DNA from: Ensifer sp. IC3342
Lineage (GTDB): Bacteria > Pseudomonadota > Alphaproteobacteria > Rhizobiales > Rhizobiaceae
Assembly (NCBI RefSeq): GCF_020193655.1
Contig: NZ_JADYVE010000002.1
Coordinates: forward strand, 124,001 to 188,000
Direction of reading: 5' to 3'
Length of the DNA stretch: 64,000 nt
The position numbers and the translations under genes are program-made. Shown in pieces: positions 6,538 to 56,628 of the stretch. Position 1 is the stretch's first letter; every line of letters begins with the position of its first letter. The notes under the pieces were generated by a model. That model had not been told where the DNA came from, searched no databases, and saw only the letters and a program-made list of their open reading frames with translations.

Positions 6538-7491
6538 ATGGCGCGCAGGCCCGAGACCAACAACAGGCTGGACGATGCTGCCCGCGCTGGCTGGCTATAC
6601 TATGTCGCCGGCCGAACCCAGGACGAGATTGCGTCGATCATGGGCATCTCGCGGCAATCGGCGCAGCGCCTCGTTTCCCTTGCCATGGCCGAGCGGCTGA
6701 TCAAAGTTCGGCTCGATCATCCAATTGCTGGCTGTCTCGAAGCCGCCGCCCGGCTCAAGGAAAAATATGAGCTGAAACACGTTGATGTCGTGCCGAGCGA
6801 TCCGGGGTCGAGTTCGACGACCGTTGGCATCGCCGAAGCCGGCGCGGTAGAGATCGAGCGTTGGCTGAAGTCGACGGACCCGGTGGTTCTGGCGATCGGA
6901 ACGGGGCGGACGCTGAAGGCGACGATCGACCAGCTGCCCTCGATGGAGTGCCCGCAGCATCGGATCGTGTCGCTCACCGGCAATATCAGGCTCGATGGCT
7001 CGGCGGCCTATTACAACGTCATCTTCAGCATGGCGGACACGATCAACGCGCGCCATTTTCCCATGCCCCTGCCGGTTCTCGTCTCTTCGCCCGAGGAGCG
7101 CGAGGTCCTTCACAATCAAAGTCTCGTAAAGATCGCCCTCAAGCTCGGTGCGGAAGCCAATGCCGCCTTCGTCGGCGTGGGCGAACTCGGGCCGGACGCA
7201 CCGCTCTGCGAGGACGGCTTCCTGGCGCGCGAGGAAATGGAGCGGCTGATGGCAGCCGGTGCCGCAGGGGAGATTTGCGGCTGGATGTTCGATCACGACG
7301 GCGAACTGCTGACGGGTAGCATCAACGAACGTGTCGCCTCCATTCCGCTTCCGCCGCGCGACCGGGCATCGGTCATCGGCATTGCCAAGGGCAAACGCAA
7401 ATACGAGGCGCTCCGTGCGGCGCTCAAGGGGCGCATCATTAACGGCCTTATCACCGACGAAACCACTGCCGACTTTCTGCTCGGCGCCTGA
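6538..7491 (+). CDS. SorC/DeoR-type sugar-sensing transcriptional regulator of the polyol operon
   Basis: 317 residues. An N-terminal helix-turn-helix (AGRTQDEIASIMGISRQSAQRLVSLAMAERLI) is followed by the SorC sugar-binding domain (VVLAIGTGRTLKATIDQL, NAAFVGVGELGPDAPL, GEICGWMFD). The family binds phosphorylated sugars and controls adjacent sugar operons. AAGGGGAAGGAG provides a good ribosome site before the ATG at 6538. It sits directly upstream of and codirectional with smoEFGK-smoS-mtlK, which makes it the likely regulator of polyol uptake; that assignment is inference from position. Confidence 0.9.
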   Translation: MARRPETNNRLDDAARAGWLYYVAGRTQDEIASIMGISRQSAQRLVSLAMAERLIKVRLDHPIAGCLEAAARLKEKYELKHVDVVPSDPGSSSTTVGIAEAGAVEIERWLKSTDPVVLAIGTGRTLKATIDQLPSMECPQHRIVSLTGNIRLDGSAAYYNVIFSMADTINARHFPMPLPVLVSSPEEREVLHNQSLVKIALKLGAEANAAFVGVGELGPDAPLCEDGFLAREEMERLMAAGAAGEICGWMFDHDGELLTGSINERVASIPLPPRDRASVIGIAKGKRKYEALRAALKGRIINGLITDETTADFLLGA

Positions 7492-9214: not shown

Positions 9215-10087
9215 ATGGCGACCTTGCACACCCGCTCCGCCGCGCGGCTGATGATCGCGCCCTCGGTGCTTCTGCTTTTGGCCTGGATGATCGTTCCGCT
9301 GGCCATGACCATCTATTTCTCGCTTCTGCGCTACAATCTGCTGATGCCCGGAATGGAGGAGTTCGCGGGGCTCTCCAACTACACCTACTTTCTGACCGAT
9401 CCGGCATTCTTCCAGGCCATCTTCAACACGCTCGCGATCGTCCTCGGCGTGCTGTTCATCACGGTGATCGGCGGTATCGCTCTTTCGCTTCTTCTCGACC
9501 AGCCGATGTTCGGGCAGGGGATCGTGCGCATCCTGGTGATCGCGCCCTTCCTGATCATGCCGACCGTTGCGGCACTCGTCTGGAAGAACATGTTCATGAA
9601 CCCGGTGAACGGGCTTTTCGCCTGGCTCGCCAAGCTCGTCGGCCTGCAGCCATTCGACTTCCTCGCCAATGCGCCGCTCTTCTCGATCATCCTCATCGTC
9701 GCTTGGCAATGGCTGCCCTTTGCGACGCTCATCCTGCTGACGGCTCTGCAGTCGCTCGACGAGGAACAGAAGGAGGCCGCGCAGATGGACGGCGCCGGCG
9801 CCTGGAGCCGCTTCTTCTATCTGGTGCTGCCGCATCTCTCACGGGCGATCACCGTGGTAATCCTGATCCAGACGATCTTCCTGCTGTCCGTCTTTGCCGA
9901 AATCCTTGTCACTACCAACGGTGGCCCGGGCACGCAGAGCACGAATCTCACCTTCCTCGTCTATGCGCAGGCTCTCCTGCAGTTCGACGTGGGCGGCGCG
10001 TCTGCCGGCGGCATCATCGCGGTCATCCTCGCCAACATCGTCGCATTCTTCCTGATGCGCATGATCGGCAAGACGCTGGAGGCTTGA
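9215..10087 (+). CDS. smoF: Polyol ABC transporter permease
   Basis: 290 residues with six predicted membrane helices and the binding-protein-dependent transport signature near the C-terminal third (EEQKEAAQMDGAGAWSRFFY, the EAA loop that contacts the ATPase). MalF-like in sequence type. The ATG at 9215 has GGGAGGA upstream. Forms the membrane channel with SmoG; smoG starts 5 bases after its stop. Confidence 0.93.
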   Translation: MATLHTRSAARLMIAPSVLLLLAWMIVPLAMTIYFSLLRYNLLMPGMEEFAGLSNYTYFLTDPAFFQAIFNTLAIVLGVLFITVIGGIALSLLLDQPMFGQGIVRILVIAPFLIMPTVAALVWKNMFMNPVNGLFAWLAKLVGLQPFDFLANAPLFSIILIVAWQWLPFATLILLTALQSLDEEQKEAAQMDGAGAWSRFFYLVLPHLSRAITVVILIQTIFLLSVFAEILVTTNGGPGTQSTNLTFLVYAQALLQFDVGGASAGGIIAVILANIVAFFLMRMIGKTLEA

Positions 10088-14900: not shown

Positions 14901-14986
14901 GTCAGAGCGGGATGGCGGCAATGCAGTGTACCCGATCCCATTTGACCTCTTAAATCATCGTGATCTCGGGACGGAGACATCCATTA

Positions 14987-16570
14987 ATGCGCGAATATGT
15001 CGTTGCGGTCGATATCGGCACCGGTAGCGCCCGTGCCGGCATTTTTGACCGGAAAGGCAAGCTTCTCGCGCGGGCCGACAGGCCGATTGCCATGAACCGG
15101 CCGGAAGAGAACCACGCCGAGCAGGATTCCGAGGACATTTGGGCGGCGGTCTGCGAGGCGGTGAAGGCGGCACGAGGCAAGGCCGGGATCGCCGCGGAGA
15201 AAGTCGCGGCGATCGGTTTCGACGCAACCTGCTCGCTGGTCGTGCGCGATCGTGACGGCGCACCGCTTTCGGTCAATCGTGCCGGTGACGAGCGCTGGGA
15301 CACGGTCGTCTGGCTCGATCACCGAGCGCTCAAGGAGGCCGATTTCTGCACTTCGACAGAACATCCCGTCCTTCACCATTCCGGCCGCGTGATGTCGCCC
15401 GAGATGGAAATGCCGAAGCTGATGTGGCTGAAGCGAAACCTTCCCGGGCAATGGGAAAGGGCCGGTTATTTCTTCGATCTTGCGGATTACATGTCCTGGC
15501 GCGCGACGGGCAGCACGGCGCGTTCGCGTTGCACCCTCACGGCAAAATGGAACTATCTTGCGCATAAGGAGAGAGGCTGGCAGCCGGACTATCTCGAACA
15601 GATCGGCCTTGCGGACCTTCTCGACCGAGGAGGATTGCCTGAGGAAACCCTGCCCGTCGGCAGTGCGGTTGGGCGCCTGACCGCGGCGGCGGCGAAAGCG
15701 CTTGGCCTCGACACGGAGTGCCGGGTTACACCGGGGCTGATCGATGCCTATGCCGGCGCGCTCGGCGTGCTCGGCAGGTTTGCCGCCGAGCCCGCAAACC
15801 TCGAACGGCAACTCGCGCTCATCGCCGGCACCTCGAGCTGCATTGTCGCCTTTTCACGCGAGATGAAGCCCGGCTTCGGCATGTGGGGGCCATATTTCGA
15901 GGCGGTGCTTCCGGGCTGCTGGCTGGTCGAGGGCGGGCAGTCGGCGACGGGTGCGCTCCTCGATCATATCGTGCGCGTGCATGGCGGAGGGCGGGAACCG
16001 ACCGCGGAGACGCACATGAAGATCATCGAGCGCGTGCAGGAACTGCGCTCATTGCATGGCCCGGCTTTCGCCGATCGGCTGCACGTCCTTCCCGATTTTC
16101 ACGGTAACCGGTCGCCACTCGCCGATCCGCACGCGCTCGGCGTCATCAGCGGTCTCGCGCTCGATGCATCGTTCGATGGGCTCTGCCGGCTCTATTGGCG
16201 CACCTGTGTCGCGATCGCGCTTGGAATCCGGCACATCCTCGAAATGATGAAAGAGGCGGGATACAATCTCGATACGTTGCATGTGACCGGCGGCCATATA
16301 CGCAATCCGTTGCTAATGGAGCTTTATTGCGACGCGACCGGCTGCCGCGTGGTTGCGCCCGAGACGCCCGATGCCGTGCTGCTTGGCACTGCGATGGCGG
16401 CTGCTGTTGCCGGCGGGCTTTATTCCGACCTCGCAGAGGCGGGGACAGCAATGGCGTCGGGCGGTCAGGAGCGTCTTCCCGATGCTGCTTCGTGCCACCT
16501 CTACGACCGAGATTATCGGCGGTTTCTTGCGCTTTACCGGCATCGCGCGGAGCTGGAAGCGATGGACTAG
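14987..16570 (+). CDS. FGGY-family pentulose kinase (ribulokinase-like)
   Basis: 527 residues. An N-terminal FGGY kinase domain (AVDIGTGSARAGIFD, IGFDATCSLV, VWLDHRA) is joined to a C-terminal domain with LHVTGGHIRNPLLMELYCDATG. Closest family by eye is the FGGY pentulose kinases that phosphorylate D-ribulose. In this operon it would trap ketopentoses released by MtlK/SmoS from ribitol or arabitol. The ATG at 14987 is preferred over an in-frame GTG at 14960, since the protein motif begins at MREYVVAVD. Last gene of the smo operon. Confidence 0.88.
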   Translation: MREYVVAVDIGTGSARAGIFDRKGKLLARADRPIAMNRPEENHAEQDSEDIWAAVCEAVKAARGKAGIAAEKVAAIGFDATCSLVVRDRDGAPLSVNRAGDERWDTVVWLDHRALKEADFCTSTEHPVLHHSGRVMSPEMEMPKLMWLKRNLPGQWERAGYFFDLADYMSWRATGSTARSRCTLTAKWNYLAHKERGWQPDYLEQIGLADLLDRGGLPEETLPVGSAVGRLTAAAAKALGLDTECRVTPGLIDAYAGALGVLGRFAAEPANLERQLALIAGTSSCIVAFSREMKPGFGMWGPYFEAVLPGCWLVEGGQSATGALLDHIVRVHGGGREPTAETHMKIIERVQELRSLHGPAFADRLHVLPDFHGNRSPLADPHALGVISGLALDASFDGLCRLYWRTCVAIALGIRHILEMMKEAGYNLDTLHVTGGHIRNPLLMELYCDATGCRVVAPETPDAVLLGTAMAAAVAGGLYSDLAEAGTAMASGGQERLPDAASCHLYDRDYRRFLALYRHRAELEAMD

Positions 16571-16588: not shown

Positions 16589-16685
16589 CTCTTAAAGCGT
16601 ACCCGATTTAAGAATAAGAATCTGCGGCAATTCAAAGTCCTGCAGCTTCCTTTGCGCGTCTGAAAAAGACGCGCGGCGCTGCAGT
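16589..16685. repeat. RIME-like palindromic intergenic repeat, copy A
   Basis: Contains TTAAAGCGTACCCGATTTAAG-like and CTTTGCGCGTCTGAAAAAGACGCGCGGCGCTGCAG-like parts; the latter forms a hairpin around GCGCGTCT/AGACGCGC. The same units recur at 18723, 40636, 52441 and 60317, some inverted. This matches the description of Rhizobium-specific intergenic mosaic elements. Confidence 0.75.
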
Positions 16686-16704: not shown

Positions 16705-16729
16705 GGAACCTTTTTCCTCCTCGCGCGTT
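16705..16729 (+). promoter_or_regulatory. EcfG/RpoE2-type promoter upstream of the candidate small RNA
   Basis: GGAAC at 16705-16709, a 16-base spacer, then CGTT at 16726-16729. This matches the RpoE2 (EcfG) consensus exactly, and the same pattern occurs twice more in this locus before phyR and nepR. No protein gene follows on this strand; a three-hairpin region ending in a terminator does. Confidence 0.7.
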
Positions 16730-16735
16730 TCGACG

Positions 16736-16864
16736 AACAGCCGGACGGTGGCGCACATCGCCCCCAATGTGACGCCGGAGGCATACCGCCGGTTGCCAAC
16801 TCACATCCCCTCTGTGAGTTGATAAAGCTCAGCCAGTGCCTTTCCCTCGGCACTGGCTGTTTTG
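16736..16864 (+). ncRNA. Candidate general-stress small RNA with C-rich loops
   Basis: The region begins about 7 bases after the EcfG -10 element and ends at a rho-independent terminator, giving about 129 nt. Hairpin 1: GGCG+CACAT (16750-16758) with ATGTG+CGCC (16767-16776), one bulged A, loop CGCCCCCA. Hairpin 2: AACTCACA (16798-16805) with TGTGAGTT (16813-16820), loop TCCCCTC. Terminator: CAGCCAGTGCC (16830-16840) with 16849-16859, loop TTTCCCTC, then TTTT. All three loops are C-rich, as in sRNAs that pair with G-rich ribosome sites. Position beside phyR-rpoE2 recalls the Caulobacter stress sRNA GsrN. No good open frame lies on this strand. No transcript data were available. Confidence 0.55.
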
Positions 16865-16918
16865 CGTTAAGGCATGTGGTTTTTCGACGACGGGAACGCC
16901 GCCGCTTCCGATTGCGGC

Positions 16919-17713
16919 TCAGGCGGCCGCCTTCGTCGACTCATTGAAGAAGAGCGCCTGGCTGATAAGCGCCTTGACCATTTCCGGGTTGAAAGGCTTC
17001 GTGACGAGGAAGGTCGGTTCGGGCCGTTCGCCGGTCAACAGCCTCTCGGGGAAGGCGGTGATGAAAATCACCGGAATGGCGCTGCTCTTCAGGATCTCGT
17101 TCACGGCATCTATGCCGGAACTTCCATCGGCCAACTGGATGTCGGCGAGCACCATGTTCGGCTTTGTTTCCTTGTACAGCGCGATTGCCTCGTCCCGGGT
17201 GCGCGCAATGCCGGTGACGCGATGACCGAGACTTTTGACCATCTGCTCGATGTCGATCGCGATCAGCGGTTCGTCCTCGATGATCATTACATCGGTCGCA
17301 ACCTGACGGGAGATCTCCTGCGATGCCCGCTCGAGAAGCGCACTCAGTTTGCCCGCATCGACATCAAGCACCTCGGCAGCCTCGTTCGGACTGAAGCCTT
17401 CGACCGACACGAGCAGGAAGGCCTGGCGCGCCAGCGGTGACACCGCCGCAAGGTTGACCGATGCCCGCTGTTCCCAGGCAAAGGGTGAAACCGGCTCGGG
17501 GATCAGGACCGAGGATGAGCCGAACAACGACGTATAAAGGCGAAACAGGGCGACCCTGTCGTTGCTTGCTTCGGGAAAGATTGTTGTATCCGCGATAAGA
17601 GCCTCGAGAACCGCGGCCACATAAGCATCACCCGACGTTTGCGAGCCGGTCAGTGCGCGGGAATAACGGCGCAGATAGGGCAGGAGCGGCGCGATCCGGT
17701 TGGACAGTGTCAT
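16919..17713 (-). CDS. phyR: PhyR: anti-anti-sigma response regulator of the general stress response
   Basis: 264 residues. The N-terminal half is sigma-like (LLPYLRRYSRALTGSQTSGD, then a region-4-like LLVSVEGFSPNEAAEVLDV). The C-terminal half is a receiver domain (VMIIEDEPLIAIDIE, phospho-acceptor Asp191 in LADIQLADGSSG, FITAFPE, VTKPFN). On phosphorylation PhyR binds NepR through the sigma-like domain and frees the ECF sigma factor. It is divergent from nepR-rpoE2 and has its own EcfG-type promoter, so it is likely autoregulated. Confidence 0.96.
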   Translation of the reverse strand: MTLSNRIAPLLPYLRRYSRALTGSQTSGDAYVAAVLEALIADTTIFPEASNDRVALFRLYTSLFGSSSVLIPEPVSPFAWEQRASVNLAAVSPLARQAFLLVSVEGFSPNEAAEVLDVDAGKLSALLERASQEISRQVATDVMIIEDEPLIAIDIEQMVKSLGHRVTGIARTRDEAIALYKETKPNMVLADIQLADGSSGIDAVNEILKSSAIPVIFITAFPERLLTGERPEPTFLVTKPFNPEMVKALISQALFFNESTKAAA

Positions 17714-17758: not shown

Positions 17759-17783
17759 AACGTCCGGCCGAAAAAAAGGTTCC
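17759..17783 (-). promoter_or_regulatory. EcfG/RpoE2 promoter of phyR
   Basis: On the minus strand, GGAAC (complement of 17779-17783), a 16-base spacer, then CGTT (complement of 17759-17762), about 45 bases before the phyR start. It is a full consensus match. Confidence 0.85.
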
Positions 17784-17788
17784 GCGCT

Positions 17789-17814
17789 GGAACATTTCAT
17801 TTTTTTCCTGCGTT
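17789..17814 (+). promoter_or_regulatory. EcfG/RpoE2 promoter of nepR-rpoE2
   Basis: GGAAC at 17789-17793, 17-base spacer, CGTT at 17811-17814, about 35 bases before the nepR start. It indicates sigma autoregulation and is divergent from the phyR promoter, with only 5 bases between the two -35 elements. Confidence 0.87.
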
Positions 17815-17848: not shown

Positions 17849-18061
17849 ATGAGATATAATTCAGGGGCAGGGCGGCCGATTGGCACAAGCTCGTCGACCG
17901 GTGATCCGAATGCACAGATCGCGGCGAAGCTGAAGGCGCTCTATCAATCAGTGCAAGAAGAGGCGATTCCAACACGGTTTCTTGATCTGCTGGAAAAGCT
18001 GGACGCGGCGGAACAGCACTCGACTCTGCAAAGCCAATCGGTTCTGCAAGGGAGGGAGTAG
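17849..18061 (+). CDS. nepR: NepR-family anti-sigma factor
   Basis: 70 residues, the usual size of NepR. The conserved core is NAQIAAKLKALYQSVQEEAIPTRFLDLLEKL (two short helices linked by a Pro), here quoted in part as IAAKLKALYQSVQEE and IPTRFLDLLEKLD. It sequesters RpoE2 in unstressed cells and is removed by phosphorylated PhyR. The ATG at 17849 follows the EcfG promoter by about 35 bases. It lies 8 bases upstream of rpoE2 in one operon. Called RsiA1 in S. meliloti. Confidence 0.93.
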   Translation: MRYNSGAGRPIGTSSSTGDPNAQIAAKLKALYQSVQEEAIPTRFLDLLEKLDAAEQHSTLQSQSVLQGRE

Positions 18062-18069
18062 GCGCCGGG

Positions 18070-18624
18070 ATGCCATCCGAAAACCAAGAATTCAAGCGCG
18101 AGATGCTCGCAGCACTTCCCAGTCTGCGCGCCTTTGCCATGTCGCTGATCGGCCGCCACGACCGAGCGGACGATCTCGTGCAGGACACGATCATGAAGGC
18201 CTGGGCGAAGCAGGATCACTTCGAGATCGGCACGAACATGAAGGCGTGGCTCTTCACGATCCTGCGCAACGAGCTTTATAGCCAGATGCGCAAGCGTGGT
18301 CGGGAGATTCAGGACAGCGATGGCCATTTCACCGAAACGCTTGCCCACCATCCCGAGCAATACGGTTCGCTCGATCTCCAGGATTTCCGGCGGGCCCTGG
18401 ATCAGTTGCCACCGGACCAGCGCGAAGCGATCATCCTGGTCGGTGCATCCGGCTTTTCCTACGAAGAAGCGGCCAAGATCTGCGGTTGCGCGCTCGGCAC
18501 CATCAAAAGCCGCGTCAATCGCGCGCGCCAGCGCCTTCAGGAAATTCTCCAGGTGCAAGGCGAGAACGACTACGGCCCGGACGAGACCTCGGCACCCATT
18601 ACCTCGCGCGCATTCGTTTCGTGA
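18070..18624 (+). CDS. rpoE2: ECF sigma factor RpoE2 (EcfG family), general stress response
   Basis: 184 residues. Region 2 is visible as LRAFAMSLIGRHDRADDLVQDTIMKAW (shown here as DRADDLVQDTIMKAW), and region 4 as GFSYEEAAKICGCALGTIK followed by SRVNRARQRLQE. It directs RNA polymerase to GGAAC-N16-17-CGTT promoters under stress and starvation. Cotranscribed with nepR. The three matching promoters in this locus fit autoregulation. Confidence 0.96.
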   Translation: MPSENQEFKREMLAALPSLRAFAMSLIGRHDRADDLVQDTIMKAWAKQDHFEIGTNMKAWLFTILRNELYSQMRKRGREIQDSDGHFTETLAHHPEQYGSLDLQDFRRALDQLPPDQREAIILVGASGFSYEEAAKICGCALGTIKSRVNRARQRLQEILQVQGENDYGPDETSAPITSRAFVS

Positions 18625-18722
18625 TCTGCGTGCGCTCTTGAGGCCAGACCGTTGCAAGTCGACGGCGGTCCTGCTTTTTTGCTTGGAGCACCAGTCACTG
18701 CGGTGAGGGGGCGGGAACCTTC

Positions 18723-18812
18723 TACAGCGCCGCGCGTCTTTTCAGACGTGCAAAGGACGCTGTAGCACTTTGAACTGCTGCATGTTGTAACCTTAAATCG
18801 GGTACGATTTAA
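18723..18812. repeat. RIME-like palindromic repeat, copy B
   Basis: Inverted relative to copy A: ACAGCGCCGCGCGTCTTTTC, then GACGCTGTAGCACTTTGAA, ending in TTAAATCGGGTACGATTTAA (its own hairpin). It lies between rpoE2 and the kinase gene, and its end sits next to the kinase ribosome site. Confidence 0.75.
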
Positions 18813-18823
18813 GGAGACGTGCA

Positions 18824-20380
18824 GTGGACCCTGATCGGTTCGGCTGCGGCGGGTGCGCGAGTTTGGAGTTGGACCGGATGCGCGAGAAGACCGAGGCGAT
18901 GCTTCCAACGGTAGCGCAAGTGCTCGATGCCCGCGAACGGCTTGGCGTGCTGCATGCCGCCGTGCCTGACATGGCGGTACCGGACAGCGATTTCGACGGT
19001 CTTGCGAAGCTCGCGGCAAGCCTGTTCAGCGCCCCGATTGCGCTCGTCAGCCTCGTTGATAATGAATGGCAATGGTTCAAGGCGGCCGTCGGAACGACGG
19101 AGACGCGGCGGCGCTGCGACGAATCTTTCTGCCTGCATACAGTCGCGGACCCCGACGGTGTTTTTGTCGTGCTCGATGCGTCCCGGCACCCGCTGTTTCG
19201 TTATCGGTCAAGGGTGACCGACGCGCCATTCCTGCGTTTCTACGCCGGTGCTTCCATTGTCCTAGACGGCCAGGCGGTCGGCACGGTCTGTGTCTTCGAC
19301 GTGGCTCCGCGTGAGGAAATCGCGCCGAAACTGATCGATGAGCTTCGCCGGATTGCCGGTATCGCGGCATCACTGCTCAAGCTCAAGGACGAGGCGCGCC
19401 GACGCGCGCTCAAGGAGGCGGCGCTTTCGCGCGAGGAACAGCGCCTTGCCATGGCGCTCGACGCAGCGAATGTCGGCAGCTGGCTTTGGGATATCCGCGC
19501 CGGCACGGTTGCGGGCAACAGCGCGATGATGCGCATGTTCGGACTGCCGGCCGAACGCTCGGTCGGCGCCAGGACTATCTTCGCCGCCATCCATCCCGAA
19601 GACCGTATCGCGACGTTTTCCAAGCTCAGGCAGGCTATGGCGGCGAACGAGGAATATGACGGCATGTTTCGCATCCGCGACAGCGGACGCTGGCTGCTCG
19701 GGCGCGGCAGGGTGCACGACCGCGACGGCAAAGGTGCTCCGCTGACCTTCCTCGGCATGACCATCGATGTCACGGACCAGCAGGCTTCGGTGCAGCGGAC
19801 GCGGCTTCTGCTCAAGGAGTTGAACCACCGCGTCAAGAATACTTTGGCGATGCTGCAGTCGCTGGCGCGTCAGACGCTTCGACAAACGAGCGATCCTGCC
19901 GAATTCATGGCTGCATTCGCCGGCCGTCTTCAGTCCATCTCGGACGCGCACGGGCTGCTTTCCGACTACGAATGGGGCACCATCCGCCTCTCCGAACTGA
20001 TATCGAAGCAGTTGCGCCCCTATGTCAGCGACTATGCCGAACAGGTCGAGATCCATAAGGACGAAATCCTGCTGGGGCCCGATCAGGCGGTTGGCCTTGG
20101 GCTGGTGCTGCACGAACTGGCGACGAATGCCTTGAAATACGGATCGCTTTCGGTCCCGAAAGGCAAGGTCGTGTTGACCGCGCGCGGTGTCGTCGAAGAC
20201 GGCTATTCCGTGCTGCACCTGACCTGGACCGAGGTGGGCGGCCCGCCGGTCCGGGAGCCGAGGCGACGTGGCTTCGGTTCGATCCTGATCGAGCGCAGCC
20301 TCGACAAGATCATCGGCAGTTCGGTCAAGGTGGAATATCTTCCGGCGGGCGTGACAGCGCTCATCCGGTTGCCTCTGTGA
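18824..20380 (+). CDS. HWE-family sensor histidine kinase (GAF-PAS-HWE), probable PhyR-pathway kinase
   Basis: 518 residues. The N-terminal GAF domain runs to about residue 180, a PAS domain from about 205 to 325 (ALDAANVGSWLWDIRAG, FLGMTIDVTDQQ), and a soluble HWE kinase core follows (phospho-acceptor His in LLLKELNHRVKNTLAMLQSL, HE in VLHELATNALKYGSLS, WxE in LTWTEVGGP). No membrane segment is seen. HWE kinases beside phyR-rpoE2 control PhyR phosphorylation; this one corresponds in position to RsiC of S. meliloti (from memory). The GTG start at 18824 is supported by AAGGAG 7 bases upstream; an ATG at 18878 is the alternative. Confidence 0.9.
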   Translation: MDPDRFGCGGCASLELDRMREKTEAMLPTVAQVLDARERLGVLHAAVPDMAVPDSDFDGLAKLAASLFSAPIALVSLVDNEWQWFKAAVGTTETRRRCDESFCLHTVADPDGVFVVLDASRHPLFRYRSRVTDAPFLRFYAGASIVLDGQAVGTVCVFDVAPREEIAPKLIDELRRIAGIAASLLKLKDEARRRALKEAALSREEQRLAMALDAANVGSWLWDIRAGTVAGNSAMMRMFGLPAERSVGARTIFAAIHPEDRIATFSKLRQAMAANEEYDGMFRIRDSGRWLLGRGRVHDRDGKGAPLTFLGMTIDVTDQQASVQRTRLLLKELNHRVKNTLAMLQSLARQTLRQTSDPAEFMAAFAGRLQSISDAHGLLSDYEWGTIRLSELISKQLRPYVSDYAEQVEIHKDEILLGPDQAVGLGLVLHELATNALKYGSLSVPKGKVVLTARGVVEDGYSVLHLTWTEVGGPPVREPRRRGFGSILIERSLDKIIGSSVKVEYLPAGVTALIRLPL

Positions 20381-56551: not shown

Positions 56552-56628
56552 TGGCGCACCCGACAGGATTCGAACCTGTGACCTTTGGAATCGGAATCCA
56601 ACACTCTATCCAGCTGAGCTACGGGTGC
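56552..56628 (-). tRNA. tRNA-Arg (anticodon CCG)
   Basis: 77 nt with CCA encoded. Acceptor stem GCACCCG/CGGGTGC, D-loop AGCTCAGCTGGATAGAG, anticodon stem TTGGA/TCCAA with loop TTCCGAT (anticodon CCG, reads CGG), and the T-loop GGTTCGAATCC. All four arms pair normally. Confidence 0.97.

Follow-up and report, generated by a model that had tools for sequence, protein, structure and literature searches.

What is encoded by the short stretch of DNA that separates a carbohydrate kinase gene from the general stress genes of Ensifer sp. IC3342? The general stress response serves alphaproteobacterial survival in soil and hosts, and under stress its sigma factor EcfG/RpoE2 is released from NepR via PhyR, an established pathway. 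The window that we analysed is a stretch of 64,000 nucleotides from a genome of 7.42 Mb in 115 contigs. In it an FGGY carbohydrate kinase gene (14960-16570, + strand; Pfam FGGY_N and FGGY_C; start codon uncertain) lies 5' of the element of interest, and phyR (rsiB1; 16919-17713, - strand; Pfam PhyR_sigma2, PhyR_sigma-like and Response_reg) converges on it from the other side. Beyond phyR follow nepR, for an anti-sigma factor of the rsiA1 type (17849-18061, +; Pfam NepR), the gene for the general stress sigma factor ecfG/rpoE2 (18070-18624, +; Pfam Sigma70_r2 and Sigma70_r4_2) and the gene for an HWE histidine kinase with PAS and GAF domains (18824-20380, +; Pfam HWE_HK); in the annotated S. 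meliloti locus, rsiA1 and rsiB1 adjoin a sigma factor. Both phyR and nepR have EcfG-type promoters of their own, GGAAC-N16-CGTT at 17759-17783 (-) and GGAAC-N17-CGTT from 17789 (+), which stand divergently, back to back, in the intergenic region at 17759-17814. A sequence-only reading had proposed that the element is an EcfG-dependent small RNA (sRNA) that pairs with G-rich ribosome sites.

The predicted transcript occupies 16736-16864 on the + strand, with a 5' end that we infer to lie some 6-8 nt past the -10 element. These 129 nt fold at -63.1 kcal/mol, whereas shuffled versions average -39.1 (sd 3.3), which gives z -7.33; none of 200 shuffles folded as well, and six homologues of differing groups gave z between -4.1 and -7.4. 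The minimum free energy (MFE) and centroid structures concur on two hairpins followed by a terminator hairpin, thus recovering both the RNA of about 129 nt and the three C-rich loops that had been described from the letters. Hairpin 1 (16738-16795, +) consists of two stacked helices with the apical loop CGCCCCCA at 16759-16766 (loop 1), hairpin 2 (16797-16821, +) carries the loop UCCCCUC at 16806-16812 (loop 2), and the intrinsic terminator hairpin with its short T tail (16830-16863, +) carries the loop UUUCCCUC at 16841-16848 (loop 3). A pattern scan places the terminator at 16830-16859, with 11 pairs of which 8 are G-C; the T tail amounts to no more than TTTTGCGTT, and by chance one would expect 0.6 matches of this kind. 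The sole open reading frame of at least 50 amino acids that touches the element on the + strand (16836-17225, GTG start) runs antisense through phyR, and among 82 homologues the length ranges between 114 and 134 nt; the region therefore has no credible protein frame, as had been claimed. In a scan of the whole window against Rfam 15 the sRNA exceeded no family's gathering cut-off, and the only match at that level was a tRNA at 56555-56628 (-). RsaE/RoxS is a Firmicutes family with which the sRNA shares a UCCCC-rich unpaired motif ahead of the terminator hairpin; the score against that family (RF01820) was 24.3 bits against a gathering threshold of 79 (E 0.053), a resemblance only.

An exact GGAAC-N16-CGTT promoter of the EcfG/RpoE2 type, GGAACCTTTTTCCTCCTCGCGCGTT, precedes the transcript at 16705-16729 (+), as had been claimed, with its -35 element GGAAC at 16705-16709 and its -10 element CGTT at 16726-16729, separated by a 16-nt spacer. 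The string occurs twice in the window, where 0.55 copies are expected and 7 of 100 shuffles contain at least two, and genome-wide it is found 100 times against 99 for a reversed control, which is chance level; we therefore dropped it as stand-alone evidence. The promoter is credible because it is conserved across loci, not because the string is rare. GGAAC was found upstream of the sRNA homologue at 62/62 aligned loci, C[G/A]TT followed at a spacing of 16 or 17 in 56/62, and the spacer letters between the two were variable, so that an EcfG-type promoter stands at the expected distance from the sRNA in the window and at most of the aligned homologous loci. In five distant relatives GGAAC is again present upstream, with a -10 element that matches a loose pattern only.

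Conservation extends to the element and its place. DNA matches were obtained in 32 of 33 genomes of the genus, a count that takes in the window's own, and the lone genome without a match is 70% complete. The covariance model R1 matched 47 of 150 relatives (E <= 1e-3), 59 of 394 family genomes in 15 of 109 genera (E <= 1e-5) and 1 of 289 class genomes, the window's own; a narrower model, R2, which retains 89 of its 97 source sequences at 1e-8 (the other eight are absent from alignment A4), matched 4 among 297 genomes sampled from the order. At the window sRNA itself R1 scores 137 bits over 16736-16866, a value to be read with the fact that this sequence is a row of R1. Opposite-strand R1 matches at the same loci are put down to the near-palindromic terminator. 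Weak second R1 matches of 22.6-33.2 bits occur in seven genomes of the same genus; the three that were inspected have no EcfG promoter in the preceding 60 nt and by eye resemble transporter coding DNA, so we rejected them as extra sRNA copies and attribute them to chance. Since these inspected matches look coding, R1 counts near threshold include some chance matches.

The position of the element was assessed at phyR itself. At least 571 phyR-encoding stretches were confirmed in named genomes, and at all 80 of the best 80 that were kept the element lies 3' of phyR on the opposite strand. It was found at 24/24 of these loci by BLAST and at 56/56 by R1 (weakest match 39.8 bits), of which 20 had themselves supplied rows of R1 and two more duplicate such rows. 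In five of five distant relatives the element lies just beyond the PhyR gene (54-58% identity), again on the opposite strand; a scan for the motif VLADIQL missed phyR in these genomes, and tblastn recovered it in 5/5.

Since the genes on either side converge on the element and an intrinsic terminator is the strongest of its hairpins, it might be supposed that the hairpins simply stop transcripts coming from phyR and from the kinase gene upstream and that there is no separate sRNA. Given that termination requires no conserved EcfG promoter and no co-varying stems with unpaired CCCC patches, that the pattern scan shows no terminator on the - strand, that in 29 Rhizobium-type loci the element lies 1.2-1.3 kb beyond phyR, that an open reading frame which by eye encodes a histidine kinase stands between the two in R. 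aethiopicum, and that for the R. etli RNA ReC64 a 5' end has been mapped and a reporter found to depend on EcfG1 according to the accessible parts of PMC3892343, we regard this explanation as highly improbable. The element is a real and well-conserved general-stress sRNA gene.

Indeed, such an RNA has already been described in related root-nodule bacteria, and what is new here is its member in this species. ReC64 of R. etli is located 3' of phyR-tcrY, has an EcfG promoter and a 5' end mapped by RACE, and its reporter is abolished in an ecfG1 mutant, as given in the accessible parts of PMC3892343; Northern blots detected it in stationary phase as an 88-nt RNA plus a larger extra band (PMC2881028), and it is over-expressed on salt shock, with SigA and RpoH promoters predicted (PMC4167512), the latter two papers likewise being cited from the parts available. 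Like ReC64, the window sRNA would be trans-encoded from an EcfG consensus promoter, and loci of R. etli-type species, R. aethiopicum among them, match R1 over its full length at the corresponding place. Judged by this synteny and these relatives, the window sRNA is the orthologue of ReC64, the same gene in the same place; with the ReC64/SmelC601 family of the Rhizobiaceae, R. etli-type relatives included, it shares sequence and a three-hairpin structure. There are differences. The window sRNA directly adjoins phyR, unlike ReC64; its CGCCCCCA is apical in hairpin 1, whereas the ReC64-type RNA of R. aethiopicum has CCCCCA in an internal loop; and ReC64 was given as 88 nt with an unexplained larger band, against the 126 nt matched in R. 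aethiopicum.

The S. meliloti counterpart is very probably SmelC601 (SMc06778 in strain 1021), a chromosomal sRNA of 127 nt on the minus strand (2625313-2625439) with an RpoE2 promoter motif, reported from nodule zones ZII, IZ and ZIII in the accessible parts of PMC7143759; those of PMC3927594 give it relatives from S. medicae and S. fredii. In the available parts of PMC3616915, RpoE2 of S. meliloti is credited with 23 sRNAs with predicted motifs and eight rpoE2-responsive intergenic regions, and SMc_sRNA_298 or SMc_sRNA_259 of that paper may be the window sRNA; none of the locus names had a match in PMC2573895 or PMC2873474. The main texts of the literature that we found report no function or target for either ReC64 or SmelC601. 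As a ruler for the identity with SmelC601 we used the distance to rnTrpL/RcsR1, which is 49.5 kb for SmelC601 in Rm1021, 45.6 kb for the element in S. meliloti 4H41 and in genome G031, and about 47.8 kb in S. meliloti Ak57, where a copy of ISRm16 lies between. The additional 1.7-3.9 kb in Rm1021 is taken as insertion differences, and with distances that differ in this way the identity rests on synteny with insertions. The S. meliloti element is oriented like rnTrpL, the order rnTrpL, element, 6S RNA in G031 is that of Rm1021, and the other minus-strand sites of the promoter form in 60 kb of 4H41 were the nepR-rpoE2 promoter and one with CATT 9 kb away. From this comparison of distance, order and promoter sites, the identity is very likely rather than proven.

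The 5' end of katG mRNA in Caulobacter has a G-tract with which the C-rich loop of the sRNA GsrN pairs, and GsrN is cleaved to give a stable 5' isoform of about 50 nt. Its authors noted the C-rich 5' loop, obtained BLASTn matches confined to Caulobacteraceae, and predicted that R. etli and S. meliloti have homologues, on the basis of position, promoter and transcripts already published, as stated in the accessible parts of PMC5869019. The window sRNA resembles GsrN in being assigned to a general-stress sigma factor, in its C-rich 5' loop and in its terminator hairpin; it has the general-stress sigma promoter, lies close to the general stress response locus and exposes a C-rich loop near its 5' end, CGCCCCCA at 16759-16766. 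It differs from GsrN in that R1 reaches only the window's genome among the 289 class genomes (a count for the class as a whole), in having several C-rich patches where GsrN, in the part of the source available, has one 5' loop and an exposed 3' region, and in that pairing with katG is unsupported. The proposal of an EcfG general-stress sRNA is thus borne out by the promoter, the site at phyR, the likeness to GsrN (PMC5869019) and the dependence of ReC64 on EcfG1 (PMC3892343), the two papers being available in part; the pairing with ribosome sites that had been attached to it stays a hypothesis.

Which parts of the molecule are likely to do its work? The three loops are unequal, in that the patch of hairpin 2 is universal, the patch of five Cs and an A moves or is lost, and the terminator loop varies. 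The loop of hairpin 2 contains CCCC in 82/82 folded homologues (77 of them distinct) and in 5/5 distant relatives despite differing stem letters. The terminator loop contains CCC in 81/82 folded homologues but in only one of the five distant relatives. In hairpin 1, GCCCCCAA is invariant in all 50 rows of alignment A1, which holds 50 of 62 deduplicated sequences and is without Rhizobium sensu stricto (alignment A2 holds 50 of 56 loci). Grouping the homologues by genus from our interpretation of record titles, CCCCCA is apical in hairpin 1 in 55/55 outside Rhizobium sensu stricto (Sinorhizobium 20/20, Ensifer 10/10, Pararhizobium-like 25/25), with a mean unpaired probability of 0.87-0.95 by group; the MFE folds of these 55 expose all five Cs in 50, pair part of them in four and fold otherwise in one. 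A second copy of CCCCCA stands in an internal loop in four of the 25 Pararhizobium-like loci. In Rhizobium sensu stricto the apical loop has decayed (ACCCAA, UCCU, AGUU and others), and 18 of 27 homologues carry CCCCCA unpaired within an internal loop instead, with a mean unpaired probability of 0.97; the other nine lack it. The C-rich patches have thus stayed largely constant while the surrounding stems changed, which suggests that these single-stranded patches are working parts of the sRNA.

The stems themselves show strong compensatory change. A covariance search of the hairpins across Rhizobiaceae had been suggested as a check; in it R1 reached the 59 of 394 family genomes. When 74 distinct sequences were aligned to R2, 97.1% of cells paired, a value that falls to 41.6% or less in slid versions, and changes on both sides of a pair were found in 179 cells against 54.3 in shuffled alignments and in 18 pairs against 9.4, numbers to be read with the bias of an R2-fitted alignment towards its model. 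By helix, compensatory changes affect 6/6 pairs of the outer and 6/9 of the inner helix of hairpin 1, 2/8 pairs of hairpin 2 and 4/11 of the terminator. When 21 Pararhizobium-like sequences were aligned by MAFFT, unfitted to any model, 96.5% of cells were paired, and both-sided changes affected 13 cells where shuffling gives 3.3 (0/500 shuffles). Two of the five measures fail to stand out in the unfitted alignment, namely the number of pairs with both-side changes (5 against 2.9; 64/500 shuffles) and the number of pair types (17 against 15.6; 127/500). In the accessible parts of the literature that we found, neither the compensatory changes of this sRNA, nor the universal hairpin 2 patch, nor the relocation of the CGCCCCCA patch had been described.

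If the patches pair with mRNAs, their partners should be found among the genes of the genome. As background we used 712 script-called genes on 800 kb of the window's genome, with binding means taken over 400 of the 712. Each loop bound the ribosome-site window more strongly than the first codons (loop 1, -5.9 versus -4.0 kcal/mol; loop 2, -5.0 versus -1.9; loop 3, -5.1 versus -2.1), and permuted loops bound ribosome sites more strongly still in 2/12 cases for loop 1, 10/12 for loop 2 and 6/12 for loop 3. Conserved partners were sought among 137 of 363 genes, those with orthologous starts in three further genomes, on one 400-kb stretch, at a threshold mean of <= -10 kcal/mol and with one loop used for all four genomes as the control. 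Loop 1 had 22 such partners against a permutation mean of 9.8, a number matched by 2/55 permuted orders and by 0/17 in which the C run was kept, whereas loop 2 (7 against 6.2; matched by 9/20) and loop 3 (4 against 4.4; matched by 41/69) had no excess. An excess for loop 2 (0/40) that was obtained with permutations differing between species was gone with one loop for all and was rejected. The sole statistical hint of targeting is therefore the CGCCCCCA patch, and of the suggested target search with the C-rich loops only loop 1, among these 137 genes, returned a signal. Pairing with G-rich ribosome sites, as claimed from the sequence, consequently stays unproven: the excess of 22 over 9.8 for loop 1 speaks for it, and the results for loops 2 and 3 and for katG do not. 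Within 45 nt of the start, katG leaders showed no conserved G-rich site, with a plausible start at about 18 of 30 loci; katG/katB is thus unsupported as a conserved target, a weak negative given the wrong strand or start in about 12/30 loci. The 11-letter exact complement of loop 1 with its flanks occurs at three genome sites, one of which is the sRNA gene itself, and with at most one mismatch at 235 sites against 42 for a reversed control. The best conserved loop 1 partner among the 137 is a gene outside the window, G000:C38:328274-330610, which has TGGGGGT or CGGGGGT just 5' of its start in four of four genomes.

A lack of specific partners for loops 2 and 3 would also be expected if the C-rich patches did not address specific mRNAs but acted on a protein, or on numerous ribosome sites at once. 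The patches recur in the molecule and one shifts between apical and internal loops, and such repetition and shifting would follow if C content and a single-stranded state were decisive, which favours a general action of this kind. However, CCUCC permutations of loop 2 outbind the real loop at ribosome sites, so loop 2 is not tuned to the general Shine-Dalgarno sequence; GCCCCCAA is invariant beyond its Cs in 50/50 rows of A1; and loop 1 does show a partner excess. We therefore consider general action improbable, if somewhat less so than the feedback on phyR discussed next.

The sRNA could instead feed back on its own circuit, the loops of hairpin 2 and the terminator masking the GAGGGAG Shine-Dalgarno of phyR. 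Among the best 80 of the at least 571 phyR stretches, GAGGGAG is found at 48/51 loci outside Rhizobium sensu stricto and CGGGAG at 20/29 within it; by conserved pairing phyR ranks 5/137 for loop 3 and 8/137 for loop 2, and in one genome it ranks 28/712 for loop 3, tied with rpoE2. Yet the terminator loop pairs with this site at a mean of only -6.3 kcal/mol in the 25 Pararhizobium-like loci (loop 2, -8.1), where the site is nearly always unchanged, and in Rhizobium loop 2 averages -6.3 and loop 3 -7.6 kcal/mol. Furthermore, a general excess of conserved partners is lacking for loops 2 and 3, and the ribosome site of ecfG/rpoE2, which we rejected as a conserved target, is not conserved. Feedback of this kind is, in our view, unlikely.

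Based on these observations, we believe it likely that the window sRNA is a trans-acting general-stress sRNA, the orthologue of ReC64 and very probably SmelC601, whose C-rich patches pair with mRNAs. On release, EcfG/RpoE2 would read GGAAC-N16-CGTT and produce an RNA of about 129 nt ending at its own terminator. The RNA would then display its C-rich patches, CGCCCCCA of hairpin 1 and CCCC of hairpin 2, on stems that keep their shape while changing their letters. By analogy with GsrN and katG, the likeliest partners of the patches are G-rich stretches in the 5' parts of mRNAs, whose translation or stability may be altered by the pairing. More speculatively, and with rather less confidence than we place in mRNA pairing as such, the functional unit may be the single-stranded seed CGCCCCCA, under selection but free in position, which would make the sRNA a two-patch regulator whose seed was relocated while its targets, possibly including phyR, were kept.

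In the accessible literature that we found, the RNA arm of the general stress response is detailed only for GsrN of Caulobacter. Sinorhizobium, Ensifer, Pararhizobium-like bacteria and Rhizobium have one conserved RNA at the control locus of this response, and its patches can now be told apart as universal (hairpin 2), moving (the five Cs and A) and varying (terminator loop); such defined contact patches offer exact positions for mutation and for target capture.

Two further observations concern the surroundings of the gene. In the window, two genes of a neighbouring cluster assigned by comparison to polyol transport, at 6538-7491 and 9215-10087, carry ribosome sites rich in G, with which the loops pair in several of the four genomes compared. 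Inverted repeats at 16591-16684 and 18722-18813, about 2 kb apart, have arms of 44, 22 and 21 nt with 86-95% complementarity, and their 19-letter core occurs at just these two places in the window (<=2 mismatches). Since they bracket it, the block of sRNA, phyR, nepR and rpoE2 lies between two inverted copies of an intergenic element, which we take to be RIME-like.
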